Of a stretch of DNA of 43,430 nucleotides, positions 38,704 to 43,430 are shown piece after piece (position 1 is the first letter of the stretch; the number at the start of each line of letters is the position of its first letter). The notes below the pieces were generated by a model. That model had not been told where the DNA came from, searched no databases, and saw only the letters and a list, made by a program, of their open reading frames with translations. The position numbers were made by a program, and so were the translations under genes. The stretch is from contig JAIDCY010000057.1 in assembly GCA_029055625.1 (NCBI GenBank), forward strand, positions 1 through 43,430, read 5' to 3'. Origin of the DNA: Ruminococcus sp. Its GTDB lineage: Bacteria; Bacillota; Clostridia; Oscillospirales; Ruminococcaceae.

Positions 38704-39570
38704 ATGAAAACAGCGTTAACAGAAAGCAAAAAGAAAAAATACTATTCTATTATAACGGTTATTGTTTTACTTTTGTTTATCTGCTCATTTGTAAGTTGTG
38801 GAATAAATTCCGAAGATGAAATAAGTACAATTACAAGCAGTCCTGAAGTAACCAAAAAAATAAAAACCACTACCACGGAAACAACTGCCAAACCTACTAC
38901 TACAAAAGCAACTACCAAAACCACTACCACAGAAGCAACTACCAAACCTACTACCACAGAAACAACAACCAAACCTACTACTACAGAAACGACAACTGAA
39001 ACAACTACCAAACCTACTACTACAGAAACGACAACTGAAACGACCACCAAACCTACCACCACAGAAACAATTACCGAAACTGAAACTACAACTAAACCTA
39101 CTACTACAGAAAAAGCAGTAGAAATTGTTGAATGTCCTGATTTATCGGGAATAAATTATGACGAAGCAATAAAAATGTACAGTGCTTATATTACAATCAA
39201 AAAAGACAGTGAGGAACACAACTCATATATATCAGCAGGGAATATCATTGAACAGGATATTAAATTTCCTTCAAAAGTCGAAAAGGGTACTGTAGTAAAA
39301 GTAAAAGTAAGTCTCGGACCAGTTGCCGTACAAACAACTCCGCCACAAGCTGTACAGCCTGCTCAACAGGTCTCAAAAACATACGTTCTTAACACTGACA
39401 CAAATTGTATTCACGCAAATCCGCAATGTTCCGCTGCTCAGAAAATAATTCCTGAAAATTATTCCGAAGTAGTTATTTCTGAAAGCGAACTATCAAATTA
39501 TACCAATATTTACTGGGCTTGCGGTAAATGTTGTTCATATAACGAAAAAAATACGCTTCCTAAATTCTGA
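38704..39570 (+). CDS. Thr-rich lipoprotein with one PASTA domain and Cys-rich C terminus
   Basis: A 288-residue predicted lipoprotein: a basic N terminus, a hydrophobic segment (14-31) and a lipobox ending at Cys32 (SFVSC). Residues 55-136 are a Thr/Glu/Pro/Lys linker of repeating KPTTTETTTE units. Residues 141-206 fit a PASTA domain (CPDLSGINYDEAIKMYSAY, then KVEKGTVVKVKVSLGP), a fold that binds peptidoglycan fragments in PrkC-type kinases. The last ~65 residues have C-x-H-x4-C (235-242) and C-x2-CC (273-277), spaced like a small metal- or disulphide-bound domain seen at the C terminus of other surface proteins. No catalytic motif is seen. It may sense or attach to the wall; this is inference. 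Confidence 0.8.
   Translation: MKTALTESKKKKYYSIITVIVLLLFICSFVSCGINSEDEISTITSSPEVTKKIKTTTTETTAKPTTTKATTKTTTTEATTKPTTTETTTKPTTTETTTETTTKPTTTETTTETTTKPTTTETITETETTTKPTTTEKAVEIVECPDLSGINYDEAIKMYSAYITIKKDSEEHNSYISAGNIIEQDIKFPSKVEKGTVVKVKVSLGPVAVQTTPPQAVQPAQQVSKTYVLNTDTNCIHANPQCSAAQKIIPENYSEVVISESELSNYTNIYWACGKCCSYNEKNTLPKF
38866..39111 (+). repeat. Thr-rich coding repeat (KPTTTETTTE units)
   Basis: Codons for residues 55-136 of the PASTA lipoprotein consist almost only of ACN, GAA, AAA and CCT, in approximate 21-30-bp units. Copy number is free to change in frame. Confidence 0.85.
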
Positions 39571-39704: not shown

Positions 39705-39971
39705 ATGAATTTAAACCTGTTTGATGATATGGACGGTCTCATACTCCGTGAACGTGAAAATTCACTTGATGCACCGGAAACGTATAAAATACCGGTCAGA
39801 CCACCACAGAATAACAGTACACGATTCCCACAGAGTACACCTCTTGCGATGGCATACGTACCATTTCAGGAGTGGGGGGAAGTATATACCGATGAGGAAG
39901 CATTCCCGATAGGTACGCTTTTCCCTGAACTCGACTTCCCTTTTACGAGAGGAGCTGACAGTAATGAATGA
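39705..39971 (+). CDS. cotJA: Spore coat-associated protein CotJA
   Basis: An 88-residue protein. TPLAMAYVPFQEWGEVYT and PIGTLFPELDFPF are the defining CotJA motifs. In Bacillus the cotJ operon is transcribed in the mother cell by sigma-E RNA polymerase, and CotJA is needed to place CotJC in the coat. The start at 39705 has AAGGAGG 8 bases upstream. It overlaps cotJB by 8 bp. No clear sigma-E promoter was recognised upstream. Confidence 0.93.
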   Translation: MNLNLFDDMDGLILRERENSLDAPETYKIPVRPPQNNSTRFPQSTPLAMAYVPFQEWGEVYTDEEAFPIGTLFPELDFPFTRGADSNE

Positions 39972-40212
39972 ACGTCAACAGCTTTACAACAAAATACAGA
40001 AATACAGTTTTGCGATAAAGGAACTGAATTTATATCTTGATACTCACCCGGACTGCCGACGTGCCCTGACGTTATTCAATAAGTATAACGGACTTCTGAA
40101 GAGTGCGGAAGAGGAGTATGCAAGACGTTTCGGACCTGTTAACCCTACTCAGACAAACGATTCTCAACACTGGTCATGGATTGATGAACCCTGGCCGTGG
40201 GAAAGGTGGTAA
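39964..40212 (+). CDS. cotJB: Spore coat protein CotJB
   Basis: An 82-residue protein. LYNKIQKYSFAIKELNLYLDTHP is the CotJB signature, and the C-terminal WSWIDEPWPWERW is a typical ending. It overlaps cotJA and is followed after 7 bp by the start codon of cotJC, which stops after seven residues (next entry). So the operon order is normal up to this point. Confidence 0.93.
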   Translation: MNERQQLYNKIQKYSFAIKELNLYLDTHPDCRRALTLFNKYNGLLKSAEEEYARRFGPVNPTQTNDSQHWSWIDEPWPWERW

Positions 40213-40219
40213 AAAAACT

Positions 40220-40243
40220 ATGTGGCAATATGAAAAAAAATAA
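40220..40243 (+). pseudogene. cotJC: First seven codons of cotJC (interrupted manganese-catalase-like spore coat gene)
   Basis: ATG 40220 opens MWQYEKK and then a TAA stop. GGTGG lies 10 bases upstream, overlapping the end of cotJB. CotJC proteins begin with MW-x-YEKK and continue for about 190 residues as a manganese-catalase-like coat protein, so this is the true cotJC start followed by foreign DNA. No reading frame in the next 3 kb continues the protein, which argues against a simple frameshift. The next gene is a large serine recombinase ending 25 bp away on the opposite strand. Most likely an integrated element splits cotJC here and the rest lies beyond the window. Loss of the remainder is the alternative. 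Confidence 0.75.
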
Positions 40244-40267
40244 ATATATCCGTGTTGTACATATTAT

Positions 40268-41734
40268 CTATAAAAAATCAACTTCAAGTGTAAGGTCTGA
40301 AAACCGCTTGTAATTGCACATTCTCTGCGTTTTAGTATAGTATATCTTCCGGACGGCACTTTTCAGCATGATATTTTTTTCTTCCGGAGTGGCATTTTCA
40401 AAATTATCAAGTATATACTGTAATCTTACTTTAAGTTCCCTGACAGGAAGTTTTTCTGATTTCGCCTGTGAATTTATTTCATTAAGGGCATTTTCAAGAG
40501 TTTTTATTTTTTCGCCGATTATCTTTGAACGTTCAAGAAATGTATTCGCATCATAAATTCCCTGTTCGAGCAGGTCATAAAGTTTGTTCTGTTGTTTCCT
40601 GACTTTTTCGAGTTCCGTTTCAATAGGTCTGCGATAATCCGGCGTTAGTTCTTCCGGTTTTTCCGGCGGAATATCTGAAAGTTCGCTTAAAATTCCGATT
40701 CTGTAACGTAATGCCGATAGTACCGCATTGTCGACTTCTTTGAACGATGCCCCGACGGTTACGCCTTTACACTGACTGTACGCACATAAAATATGTTCAT
40801 GACCGTTATTTGTAAGAAACCTTCGCTTCATCTGGTGTCCGCAGTTCTTGCAGTACAGTATACCGTGATAATAATTCCGTAGTACGTCATGCGGATGTAG
40901 TTGTGCAACGGGATTATTTTTCATCTTATCCTGAACGGCGTTGAAAATTTCTTCCGTAACTATCGGTTCATGCTTTCCCTGATAAAGAGTGTCTCCGTTT
41001 GATTTGTTTTTCCAGCCGATTTTACCACAGTATAACGGATTAGTAAGAATTTTCCTGATACTCGGAACTTCCCATAAATCGCTTTTCTGAGGTTTTATAC
41101 CCATGCGGTTGAGTTCCGCCGATATGAATTTTGCACCGTGACCGTCAAGATAAAGCCGGTATATTAGCCGGATAACTTCCGCTTCTTCCGGAACTATTTC
41201 AAGAGTATGTGTCTTAGGTTCGGGACTGACTTTTCTGTATCCGTATGGAGTTCGGGAAGATATATAATTTCCCTCTTTTACGGAAGCAAGCCGTCCTGCC
41301 TGCATACGTCGTTTAATGGTCTTGTACTCCCGACGGGACATAAAGAGTGAAAATTCAAAATATTCTTCGTCGATTTCATTGTTAGGGTCATAGGTCTTGA
41401 CGGGTGTTATAATTTTAGTCCCCGACTGTCTGAACGCCTGAGCAACTATGCCCTGGTCTATGGTATCGCCACGTGCGAGACGTTCCACTTCAACCACCAG
41501 CACTCCGGCGTACTTGTTCTGTGCGAGGTCTGAAAGTAACATCTGCATCTGCGGACGTGCGGAAATGCTGTCACCGCTGATTATTTCCCTGTAAATTTTA
41601 ACGATATTAAATCCCTGACGGTTTGCAAGTTCCATGAGTACCGCCTGATGACGTGCGAGAGTTTCACCCTCACCCCGTGCTTCCGCATCAAGGTCTATAC
41701 GGGATTTCCGCAGATACATACAATATTCATCCAT
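40268..41734 (-). CDS. Large serine recombinase adjacent to the broken cotJC
   Basis: A 488-residue site-specific recombinase. The resolvase domain (1-~150) has the catalytic Ser11 in CMYLRKSRID and the Arg pair in VEVERLARGD. A recombinase domain follows (PYGYRKVSP, then IRLIYRLYLDGHGAKFIS and IRKILTNPLYCGKIGW). A zinc ribbon (ILYCKNCGHQMKRR, then CAYSQCKG) and a coiled-coil region (about 370-430) complete the large serine integrase plan, the same family as the skin element recombinase SpoIVCA and phage integrases. The start at 41734 has AAGGGGG 8 bases upstream. Its C terminus faces the cotJC fragment, where an attachment site is expected. Confidence 0.92.
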   Translation of the reverse strand: MDEYCMYLRKSRIDLDAEARGEGETLARHQAVLMELANRQGFNIVKIYREIISGDSISARPQMQMLLSDLAQNKYAGVLVVEVERLARGDTIDQGIVAQAFRQSGTKIITPVKTYDPNNEIDEEYFEFSLFMSRREYKTIKRRMQAGRLASVKEGNYISSRTPYGYRKVSPEPKTHTLEIVPEEAEVIRLIYRLYLDGHGAKFISAELNRMGIKPQKSDLWEVPSIRKILTNPLYCGKIGWKNKSNGDTLYQGKHEPIVTEEIFNAVQDKMKNNPVAQLHPHDVLRNYYHGILYCKNCGHQMKRRFLTNNGHEHILCAYSQCKGVTVGASFKEVDNAVLSALRYRIGILSELSDIPPEKPEELTPDYRRPIETELEKVRKQQNKLYDLLEQGIYDANTFLERSKIIGEKIKTLENALNEINSQAKSEKLPVRELKVRLQYILDNFENATPEEKNIMLKSAVRKIYYTKTQRMCNYKRFSDLTLEVDFL

Positions 41735-41756
41735 ATTCTGTCCCCCTTAAAAAATT

Positions 41757-41790
41757 ATCCGGTATCTTTCATGATGCCGGATTTTTATTT
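41757..41790. terminator. Terminator between lipoprotein and recombinase genes
   Basis: ATCCGGTATC (41757-41766) pairs with GATGCCGGAT (41773-41782) with one G-U pair. T-runs on both sides allow termination in either direction. It insulates the recombinase from the lipoprotein transcript upstream. Confidence 0.8.
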
Positions 41791-41799
41791 CATTATTTT

Positions 41800-42468
41800 T
41801 TATTCTTTTAATGATGGCAATATCCACAAATCGGTGACGTAATCTCCTAATTGTATATCAACAATATTTCCGTTATATATACCATCTATTGTGTTTTTAT
41901 CAAGTGTGAACTGTATGACTTTTGATTCCGAACCGTCTGCCATATCCGCAACTGCCCAGTATTGAATTTCATTGAATTTATTTCCGCCTTGATTCAGAAT
42001 TACATATGCGACATTCATATAATTTTGATTTATAGTCATTTTATTTGTCATTGACGGCTTTATTTTTGCCTTAATGACCAGAGGACCGGCTACTGTTGTA
42101 TATTCCAGAAGTTCGCCATGTGCTAACGAAGTTATTTTAAATTCGTCACTGCTATTATCTGAAGTATTATCAGTCTGACTTGTTACATCCGAAGCCTCAG
42201 TAGTAGTAACTGGTTTTTCTGTAGTCTTTTTAGTTGTAGTTTTTTCAGTAGTTTCTTCAGTTGTAGAAGATTCTTCTGTTGTTTCAGTAGTTGTTTCAGC
42301 CACAGAGCTTTCAGAAGATGATATGGAACTTTCAGAATCATCTTTTCTTCCGTTATTGTTACATGAACCTATTACCAGAAGCAATAAGATTATTGATATT
42401 ATCAGTGATTTTTTATTTTTTCTGACATTCTCGGGTGTTTCCGTATTTTCGTTTTTTTTCTTTTTCAT
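41800..42468 (-). CDS. Thr/Ser-rich lipoprotein of unknown function
   Basis: A 222-residue predicted lipoprotein. The charged N terminus (1-20) is followed by a hydrophobic segment (21-34) and lipobox Cys36 (VIGSC). Residues ~43-108 are a Ser/Thr/Glu linker (SSESSVAETTTETTEESS and similar). The C-terminal ~110 residues form a compact beta-rich domain (KITSLAHGELLEYTTVAGP, VIKAKIKPS, NYMNVAYVILNQGG, YWAVADMADGSESKVIQFTL) with no motif I can name. Similar stand-alone lipoproteins occur in ruminococci. It has its own consensus promoter and terminator. It lies just upstream of the recombinase on the same strand. Confidence 0.75.
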   Translation of the reverse strand: MKKKKNENTETPENVRKNKKSLIISIILLLLVIGSCNNNGRKDDSESSISSSESSVAETTTETTEESSTTEETTEKTTTKKTTEKPVTTTEASDVTSQTDNTSDNSSDEFKITSLAHGELLEYTTVAGPLVIKAKIKPSMTNKMTINQNYMNVAYVILNQGGNKFNEIQYWAVADMADGSESKVIQFTLDKNTIDGIYNGNIVDIQLGDYVTDLWILPSLKE

Positions 42469-42529
42469 TTAAATAATCCTCCAGAATTAACCTGCTCTTC
42501 AGATGTTAGTGTCTTAAGCTGTTTATATT

Positions 42530-42558
42530 ATTTTAAACTGTTTCATAGATTTTGTCAA
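42530..42558 (-). promoter_or_regulatory. Promoter for the Thr/Ser-rich lipoprotein gene
   Basis: Minus strand TTGACA (42558-42553), 17-base spacer, TAAAAT (42535-42530), close to consensus. Confidence 0.85.
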
Positions 42559-42625
42559 GTGGTTTTTAAATTTTCAAGAAATAATGACAAACCATATGCC
42601 ATATACTCAATAGAGGTGATAAATT

Positions 42626-42883
42626 ATGGTAAATAAAACCGAGCAGATACTTACTCCGTATGAACGAGCAGGAATGTATACGGTTATTGAAAAAACAGAA
42701 ACTGAAACTCACTACATAGAGACTATACGGACATATGACGGTGCTACTGTTATTAACCGTCTTCCGAAACATACTAAAGCGGAACAGGCTGTTATTGACG
42801 GAAACATAGTAAGGGCTCTTGCGAAGTTCGCAAATCCGGATGTTGATATGTCATCAGTTGAGTATATGGAACTCATAATATGA
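42626..42883 (+). CDS. Small protein of unknown function
   Basis: An 85-residue protein with AGAGGTG upstream of ATG 42626. The sequence is mixed alpha/beta: TEQILTPYERAGMYTVIEKTETETHY, then IRTYDGATVINRLPKHTKAEQAVIDGNIVRALAK is split between strands and helices; no Cys, signal peptide or membrane segment is present. I do not recognise a family. A sequence resembling a sigma-E promoter, AAATAAT-N14-CATATACT, lies at 42579-42607, and a terminator follows at 42893-42920, so it appears to be a single-gene unit. Confidence 0.6.
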   Translation: MVNKTEQILTPYERAGMYTVIEKTETETHYIETIRTYDGATVINRLPKHTKAEQAVIDGNIVRALAKFANPDVDMSSVEYMELII

Positions 42884-42892
42884 AAGTAACTA

Positions 42893-42925
42893 AAAGACCC
42901 TGCATAAAGCAGAGTCTTTTTATTT
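42893..42925. terminator. Bidirectional terminator between the small protein and LPQTG protein genes
   Basis: AAAGAC-C-CTGC (42893-42903) pairs with GCAG-A-GTCTTT (42909-42919) around loop ATAAA; one mismatch. T-runs lie on both sides. Confidence 0.8.
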
Positions 42926-42955
42926 TATCTATATTAAAGTTATTTCTGTTTATTA

Positions 42956-43429
42956 TTAATTATTTTTTTTACGGCGAATGATTCCGGAAGATTTTATTGA
43001 AATGAAACCAACGGCTGTCATTACGAGTGCTCCGAGAGCTGTGAGAAGATTTGTAAGAGAGTTATTACCGGTCTGTGGAAGATTTACTTCATTGTCTGCA
43101 TTGTCAGTACCGATACCGTTTTCAGGGTTGATTTCGTAAACATCAAGAACGTTGTCGGAATCATCTTTAATAATCATCTGATAGCTACCGTCAGCGTTTT
43201 CGTTGATTGTAGCGGAAGTAGCTTCAGAAGTATAATTTCTTCTGTTGTAATCATTTACTGCCCAGCTGATAAGTTCTTCATCTGAGGTGATATGTGGAAC
43301 TACTGATTTTTCAACAGAAGTTATAGTTGTGGTTGTTGTAGATTCTTCAGTAGTTGTAGATGTTATAGATTCTTCAGTAGTTGTGGTTGTTGTAGCTTTT
43401 TCGGTAGTTGTGGATGTTGTAGCTTCTTC
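42956..43429 (-). CDS. LPQTG cell-wall-anchored protein, C-terminal part (5' end outside window)
   Basis: The frame stays open from the stop at 42956 to the right edge, so only the last ~157 residues are visible. At the upstream end are Thr/Glu repeats (TTTTTTEES, TSTTTEEST). A short folded segment follows (SWAVNDYNRRNYTSEATSA, then NENADGSYQMIIKDDSDNVLDVYEI), with a sorting signal near the C terminus: LPQTG, a hydrophobic helix and a basic tail IIRRKKNN. Sortase A-type enzymes would cut the LPQTG motif and attach the protein to peptidoglycan. The main domain lies outside the window. An internal ATG at 43177 is not the true start. Confidence 0.85.
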   Translation of the reverse strand, partial: EEATTSTTTEKATTTTTTEESITSTTTEESTTTTTITSVEKSVVPHITSDEELISWAVNDYNRRNYTSEATSATINENADGSYQMIIKDDSDNVLDVYEINPENGIGTDNADNEVNLPQTGNNSLTNLLTALGALVMTAVGFISIKSSGIIRRKKNN

Positions 43430-43430
43430 A

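Follow-up and report, generated by a model that had tools for sequence, protein, structure and literature searches.

In C. difficile, the skin element interrupts sigK. Its recombinase CD1231 is expressed from a sigmaA promoter, and the factor CD1234 (72 aa) is under the control of sigmaE and SpoIIID, as described in PMC5025042. Besides sigK, the interrupted genes on record in the reports consulted are spsM, spoVFB (also written spoIVFB), spoVR, gerE, and yabG (PMC4191935, PMC6957869, PMC10747680). The gin element in gerE of Bacillus cereus ATCC10987 is not prophage-like. It encodes a recombinase and a directionality factor (GirC, GirX), lies in a mother-cell gene, and its excision is described on an experimental basis (PMC5595907). 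SPbeta in spsM (SprA, SprB) and yin in yabG of C. botulinum are phages or prophage-like, carry a serine recombinase, and also reside in sporulation genes (PMC4191935, PMC10747680). According to the published cases covered here, developmental gene splicing in spore formers concerns a handful of genes with one element each. The heterocyst elements of cyanobacteria (nifD, fdxN, hupL; XisF) are likewise examples of developmental gene reconstruction by site-specific excision.

The coat gene cotJC is not among these genes. We found no occurrence of the word cotJC in the main texts of PMC4191935, PMC6957869, PMC10747680, and PMC5595907. It is mentioned in PMC11222575 and PMC3533761, and an interruption is not described in the relevant parts of these two reports; the literature search lay mostly outside preprints and subscription journals. 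The C. difficile prophages phi027 and phiCDKH01 integrate at a manganese-catalase coat gene, but they sit beside the CotJC-like gene cotG, which is a separate ORF, and no splitting is described for it in the sections on these prophages (PMC12122855, PMC8270841, PMC11222575). Lowered expression of the C. difficile cotJB2-cotD operon in a sigK mutant indicates that the homologs are expressed in the mother cell (PMC3789822). Within Ruminococcus, R. bromii is described as sporulating (PMC5814915), and a listing in PMC3533761 gives the relative R. albus 7 as non-sporogenous, with several spo genes missing.

We analyzed a stretch of 43,430 nt (the window), which is a complete contig (C105) of a Ruminococcus genome comprising 151 contigs and estimated to be 92% complete. 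In this genome cotJC is broken after codon 7. Like C. difficile skin, the element at codon 7 places a large serine recombinase inside a mother-cell gene, and it appears to combine a vegetative-type promoter for the recombinase with a mother-cell-type promoter for a small partner (PMC5025042). It differs from skin in its target, in the presence of several independent elements in one gene, and in being known from sequence alone. The partner, which we name small86, was likened to CD1234 by role and not by sequence comparison. The apparently non-prophage-like character, the pairing of a recombinase with a putative directionality factor, and the location in a mother-cell gene are features in common with gin; the gene and the host class are different, and in contrast to gin the excision is a prediction from the DNA (PMC5595907). 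SPbeta and yin are comparable to prophages that we found in cotJC of other genomes at codons 31 and about 70. They are described as one insert per gene, whereas a single cotJC (genome G022) holds two prophages in series. We consider it likely that cotJC is interrupted by a skin-like sporulation element, which would act by the mechanism of the C. difficile skin element.

Results

Three Pieces of cotJC in the Source Genome

A preliminary description of the window had reported that cotJA and cotJB are intact and that cotJC is cut after MWQYEKK, with a gene for a large serine recombinase adjoining on the opposite strand. Both statements were borne out by the open reading frames (Table 1), and the spacing between the TAA of cotJC and the end of the recombinase gene (LSR1) is 24 bp. 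Threonine-rich proteins are encoded beside the visible element (38704-39570) and by the two presumed cargo ORFs inside it, and the end of the contig falls within a repeat of this kind.

Table 1. Positions of features at the cotJ locus within the window.
Feature	Position	Strand	Remarks
cotJA	39705-39971	+	Intact ORF
cotJB	39964-40212	+	Intact ORF; PF12652 match 39976-40203
cotJC exon 1 (codons 1-7, MWQYEKK)	40220-40243	+	TAA at 40241-40243 contributed by the element
Left att site of element 1	40235-40262	+	AAAAAA, 6 nt, TATCC (40247-40251), TGTTGTACAT (40253-40262)
Element 1, visible part	40241-43430		Contig end at 43430
LSR1, large serine recombinase, 488 aa	40268-41734	-	Pfam PF00239, PF07508; phrog_95 integrase
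ORF inside element 1	41800-42468	-	Presumed cargo
Promoter-like site CAAAC-N7-CATA upstream of small86	42588-42603	+	Strict motif, common to sigK upstream regions of the genus
small86-family ORF, 85 aa (family 85-86 aa)	42626-42883	+	Candidate recombination directionality factor of LSR1; tblastn
ORF inside element 1, cut	42956-43429	-	Presumed cargo

Since the contig ends within element 1, the far end of the element must lie on other contigs. A search of the source genome with PF05067, the manganese-catalase family that includes CotJC, gave two more cotJC pieces (C129:163-333 and C8:9377-9754) and no intact copy, so the short reading frame on C105 is no coincidence. The piece on C129 corresponds to codons 8-62 (exon 2) and that on C8 to the gene from about codon 63 on, up to codon 204 (exon 3). 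Placed end to end, the three pieces form a single CotJC of 204 residues, and exons 1 and 2 join in frame on paper. The remainder from residue 8 on, which had been predicted, is thus present in the genome, on contigs C129 and C8 and not on C105. The idea of one element in cotJC held with regard to the interruption and failed with regard to its number, as the source genome has two interruptions, at codons 7 and 62. The att arm on the exon 2 side (C129, about 138-165) is degenerate in this genome. A joined allele of the source species was not found: the closest full-length match to the joined protein was 93% identical among the best 120 of 7923 (7999 candidates scored). Sporulation genes, named by eye, are present, and a full-length SigK-like match was obtained on C18. 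The source host may be able to sporulate.

Downstream of exon 2 (C129 334-2115) we found a second recombinase gene, LSR2 (C129:498-2027), directly followed by a proC-like gene and then by spoIIM and sigG (names assigned by eye). Exon 3 (C8 9311-9913) is preceded by tRNA-Pro. Because proC has other neighbors in the five relatives whose upstream flank was covered (G084, G005, G092, G122, and G108), element 2 must have been broken up by rearrangement in the source genome. Either the joining of exon 2 to exon 3 would now take out or turn round a normal part of the chromosome, or this joining may have ceased to work.

cotJC Is Interrupted at Five Positions in the Genus

We searched a set of 125 Ruminococcus genomes with PF05067 and the CotJB family. 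PF05067 matches, paralogs included, were obtained in 103 genomes and CotJB matches in 104. The frame after cotJB was read in 95 of these 104, and after dropping one of them (G075, contig end) 94 were counted. cotJC was interrupted in 69 of the 94 genomes, at five positions, and intact in 25, two of which have a non-ATG start. The break followed codon 7 in 39 genomes and was located at codon 31-36 in 15 (G101 placed by eye), at codon 62-64 in 7 (the reading of G018 stops at a contig end), at codon 65-73 in 6 (G004 placed by eye), and near codon 136 in 2. Six of the nine unread genomes (G002, G011, G081, G083, G086, and G087) have a PF05067 match directly 3' of cotJB; G019, G027, and G098 were left outside the reading of break positions. 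Relatives with an uninterrupted gene, to which the preliminary description had pointed for comparison, do exist, e.g., G108, G111, and G122.

The break at codon 7 was also present in the R. flavefaciens isolates MA2007, Y1, ATCC 19208, and YRD2003 (G010, G014, G001, and G012), and G009 (3 contigs; a contig of 3.6 Mb) has both ends of the break on one contig. By PF05067, a cotJC remainder was absent in 6 of the 39 codon-7 genomes (G030, G034, G045, G055, G115, and G121), so the gene may be lost in some of them; G030 and G034 are 98 and 96% complete. G034, G045, and G055 show the codon-7 break and an att arm, but neither an LSR1 match nor a cotJC remainder. Truncation in the absence of the recombinase had been named beforehand as a pattern that speaks against an element, and these three genomes fit it unless their assemblies are incomplete (96, 90, and 82% complete, respectively). 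In G053 (C9:9000-11500), codons 29-204 of cotJC are inverted, and a distance of about 0.6 kb separates them from cotJB and exon 1.

Structure and Content of the Codon-7 Element

The resolvase and recombinase domains of LSR1 were detected, and its zinc ribbon domain was below the cut-off. LSR1 also resembles XisF over residues 45-467; since the score of 92 bits against a cut-off of 375 reflects generic recombinase likeness, an assignment as XisF-like was rejected. Matches to LSR1 at E 1e-60 occurred in 53 of the 125 genomes, and 41 of these showed at least 53% identity. Judged by coordinates, LSR1 adjoins exon 1 in 16 of the 41 genomes and exon 2 in 15, lies further inside the element in 3 (G001, G029, and G069) and elsewhere in the genome in 2 (G084 and G111); 5 were left unplaced. 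The direction of LSR1 varies: the gene is turned toward exon 1 in part of the genomes, the source genome among them, and toward exon 2 in the rest, so the interior of the element has been inverted. The LSR1 relative in G084 and G111 (74-75% identity) is present although codons 1-62 of cotJC are joined there.

The left att site at codon 7 consists of GAGAAAAAA, six bases, and TATCC.TGTTGTACAT. The right att site is its mirror image, ATGTACAACA.GGATA, followed by AATAAA and then by exon 2. We defined complete copies as those with both ends of the codon-7 element on one contig (n = 11). Both arms matched the consensus at 9 or more of 10 bases, in the same place, in 10 of the 11 copies; the arms of G104 differ. 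In elements contained in one contig, the cotJC pieces have the same orientation and are bounded by the mirrored att arms, and the equal spacing of the arms suggests an AA core.

The 11 complete elements measure 3.1 to 19.7 kb, and the element of G003 extends over about 46 kb as judged from coordinates. LSR1 was found in all 11, as was small86 when searched by tblastn; ORF clustering, which drops overlapped ORFs, gave small86 in 6 of 11. The next gene family was shared by only 4 of the 11 elements, and ORF content varies among them. The shortest, in G104, holds LSR1, small86, and two further ORFs. In the 3.2 kb of element 1 that the window covers, we saw no ORF for a phage structural protein, and the part of the ORFs searched in the 11 complete elements included no constant one.

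LSR1 spreads partly horizontally. In 26 genomes, the distances of LSR1 and RpoB gave a Mantel r of 0.26 (59 of 5000 permutations as high), and their trees had 4 of 23 splits in common (shuffles: mean 0.27, maximum 3). A purely vertical domestication of LSR1 was rejected on the basis of the RpoB comparison, by which only the clade of G000 (the source genome), G115, G005, G036, and G092 is vertical. We gave no weight to a distance test with the cotJ proteins (r 0.23; as high in 72 of 2000 permutations), since each pair had been compared over different sites.

The small86 Family and Its Upstream Region

The small86 protein has 110 relatives, which are hypothetical proteins where named. It gave no match in NCBIfam or PHROG and a Pfam match only below the cut-off. 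The structural model, which is confident, comprises a helix, three strands, and a helix (mean pLDDT 87.8, pTM 0.58), and a fold search against the PDB returned nothing at E 0.001 or better. By analogy, small86 is most likely the directionality factor that would allow LSR1 to excise the element.

A CATA motif was located 4-22 nt before the small86 ribosome site in 15 of 19 cases and was missing in the other 4; shuffling gave a mean of 2.6 and a maximum of 7 in 300 rounds. The same test was positive for 3 of 35 upstream regions of LSR1 and 1 of 65 of cotJA. The motif CAA[GA]C-N6-8-CATA is present upstream of sigK in 22 of 37 rows for the genus, which include repeats of one genome (e.g., L289, L330). 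Before small86 it occurred in 5 of 19 cases in its strict form, the source window included (0.24 expected), in 10 of 19 in a relaxed form (0.67 expected), and in none of 35 LSR1 or 65 cotJA upstream regions; in all these promoter controls, which are shuffles or background counts, the kinship among the genomes remains. A vegetative-type extended -10, by its usual consensus, was found before LSR1 in 8 of 35 cases. We saw no sigmaE-type -35 upstream of small86, and the site there presumably has a partial likeness to SpoIIID sites. Judged by these upstream motifs, small86 may be under mother-cell control, which would be a close parallel, at the level of sequence, to the C. difficile skin element. 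The P2 promoter of C. difficile sigK is described as having the -10 box CATATAAT (PMC3789822).

Other Recombinase Families and Prophages in cotJC

Four recombinase families with a mutual identity of 22-35% were matched to four positions in cotJC. The LSR1 family belongs to codon 7. Next to the codon-62 break, the best match was an LSR2-like gene in 4 of 7 genomes. The codon-31 break was accompanied by a third family in 7 of 15 (G091 via a piece of 157 residues), and 5 of 6 genomes broken at codon 65-73 had a fourth family there. Within the short flank examined, no recombinase was found in 14 of 30 genomes, including both with a break near codon 136.

Some of the inserts are prophages. The cotJC gene of G022 (C7:50001-128000) contains two in series, at codons 31 and about 70. 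They measure about 33 and 35 kb, and each carries genes for terminase, portal, and capsid. The insert in G041 is a prophage with a tape-measure gene, and those in G059 and G105 are prophage-like by eye. The insert in G052 is small (5.4 kb). A palindrome like TCACATATAATGTGA, or a variant, stands beside a small ORF that precedes LSR2-family genes (G084:C4, G116:C38, and G052:C77); it is a possible operator.

Selection on the Separated Pieces

Pairwise dN/dS was calculated by the Nei-Gojobori method with our own script for pairs with dS below 2.5. For codons 66-204, the 30 split genomes had a median of 0.035 (75 of 435 pairs) and the 25 genomes with intact genes one of 0.045 (52 of 300 pairs). 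For codons 8-62, the medians were 0.056 among 42 split genomes (223 of 861 pairs) and 0.055 among the 25 intact ones (94 of 300 pairs). Since most pairs are saturated at silent sites, the absolute values are rough, and the equality between split and intact genes is the point. Exon 3 of the source genome and intact cotJC of G111 are separated by 13.5 nonsynonymous and 55.5 synonymous differences. Stop codons were present in the pieces of 4 of 83 genomes. In three of these the stop is located at the edge of a piece, and in the fourth it is at codon 181, which is also the end of some intact genes (products of 180 aa in G064, G065, and G097). The strong purifying selection on the pieces argues for a reconstitution of cotJC.

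Discussion

The reading of the insert as a skin-like element, as put forward in the preliminary description, gains support from the remainder in the source genome and from the conservation of the pieces across the genus. The cotJC pieces are probably rejoined in the mother cell during sporulation. LSR1 would recombine the two att sites that flank the codon-7 element. It would be expressed from a vegetative-type promoter, and a sigK-type promoter would restrict the production of small86 to the mother cell. Excision there would join GAA AAA AAA to TTA CAA TAT and restore the frame, and the forespore would retain the element, which would in this way be inherited. With a second LSR element after codon 62, two recombination events would be needed in the source genome. 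A more far-reaching version, which we put forward tentatively and rather doubt, is that cotJC is built by several independent developmental recombinations, with at least two unrelated recombinase systems each acting in the mother cell. The second event would here delete or invert a part of the chromosome with proC, spoIIM, sigG, and clpB-like genes, tolerable only because the mother cell dies.

cotJC could instead be a favored attB of mobile elements and phages that excise in transfer or lytic cycles independently of sporulation, so that the gene would be whole only after the elements leave. The prophages among the inserts (two in G022, one in G041, and by eye those in G059 and G105), the partly horizontal spread of LSR1, and the four recombinase families that target four places in cotJC all agree with such a site preference, as do phi027 and phiCDKH01, which are described beside and not inside the CotJC-like gene (PMC12122855, PMC8270841, PMC11222575). 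A mere attachment site does not readily account for codon-7 elements that hold no constant phage gene among the ORFs searched and always LSR1 together with small86, for the sigK-type site upstream of small86, or for separated pieces as constrained as intact cotJC, and we regard this explanation as unlikely. The constraint also bears on the idea that cotJC is dead in the interrupted genomes and the pieces are remnants. The high number of interrupted genes (69 of 94) and the 6 of 39 codon-7 genomes without a remainder would suit a dead gene, and R. flavefaciens is classically called non-sporing. Nevertheless, dN/dS values of 0.035-0.056 in the pieces, as in intact genes, largely refute it, and with stops limited to 4 of the 83 genomes that have pieces and a full-length SigK-like match in the source genome it is very improbable. 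That three pieces lie on three contigs of a metagenome-assembled genome and that the window ends in a repeat region might suggest an artifact of assembly or binning. Such an artifact is hardly conceivable in view of the identical break in named isolates and in G009, where both ends are on one contig, and of break positions that are conserved and tied to recombinase families.

The skin-like reading of the codon-7 insert would add a gene for which the literature searched describes no interruption, and would place this element in a hotspot where prophages are found as well. In most genomes read from this genus, a major one in gut and rumen, separate recombinase families have struck one coat gene, at five positions. 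Whether survival of elements in mother-cell genes is a rule can now be tested on a larger scale, and the locus is a source of new pairs of recombinase and partner with mapped att sites. The selection that maintains the cotJC pieces indirectly suggests that some Ruminococcus species considered non-sporing may in fact form spores.

The genus also contains skin-type elements in sigK. Four genomes have a split sigK on one contig and one strand (G009:C1:417043-423270, G041:C13:257478-266628, G123:C6:83178-92958, and G044:C60:23063-29257), with a gap of 5.5 to 9.1 kb at about codon 110. The recombinase between the sigK pieces is only 20-26% identical to the four cotJC recombinases. In G084 (C81:67500-71500), an LSR1 relative (74% identity) adjoins the second sigK piece, which covers the gene from about codon 136 on, and the first piece is found on another contig (C45). 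The LSR1 family thus seems to interrupt sigK as well.
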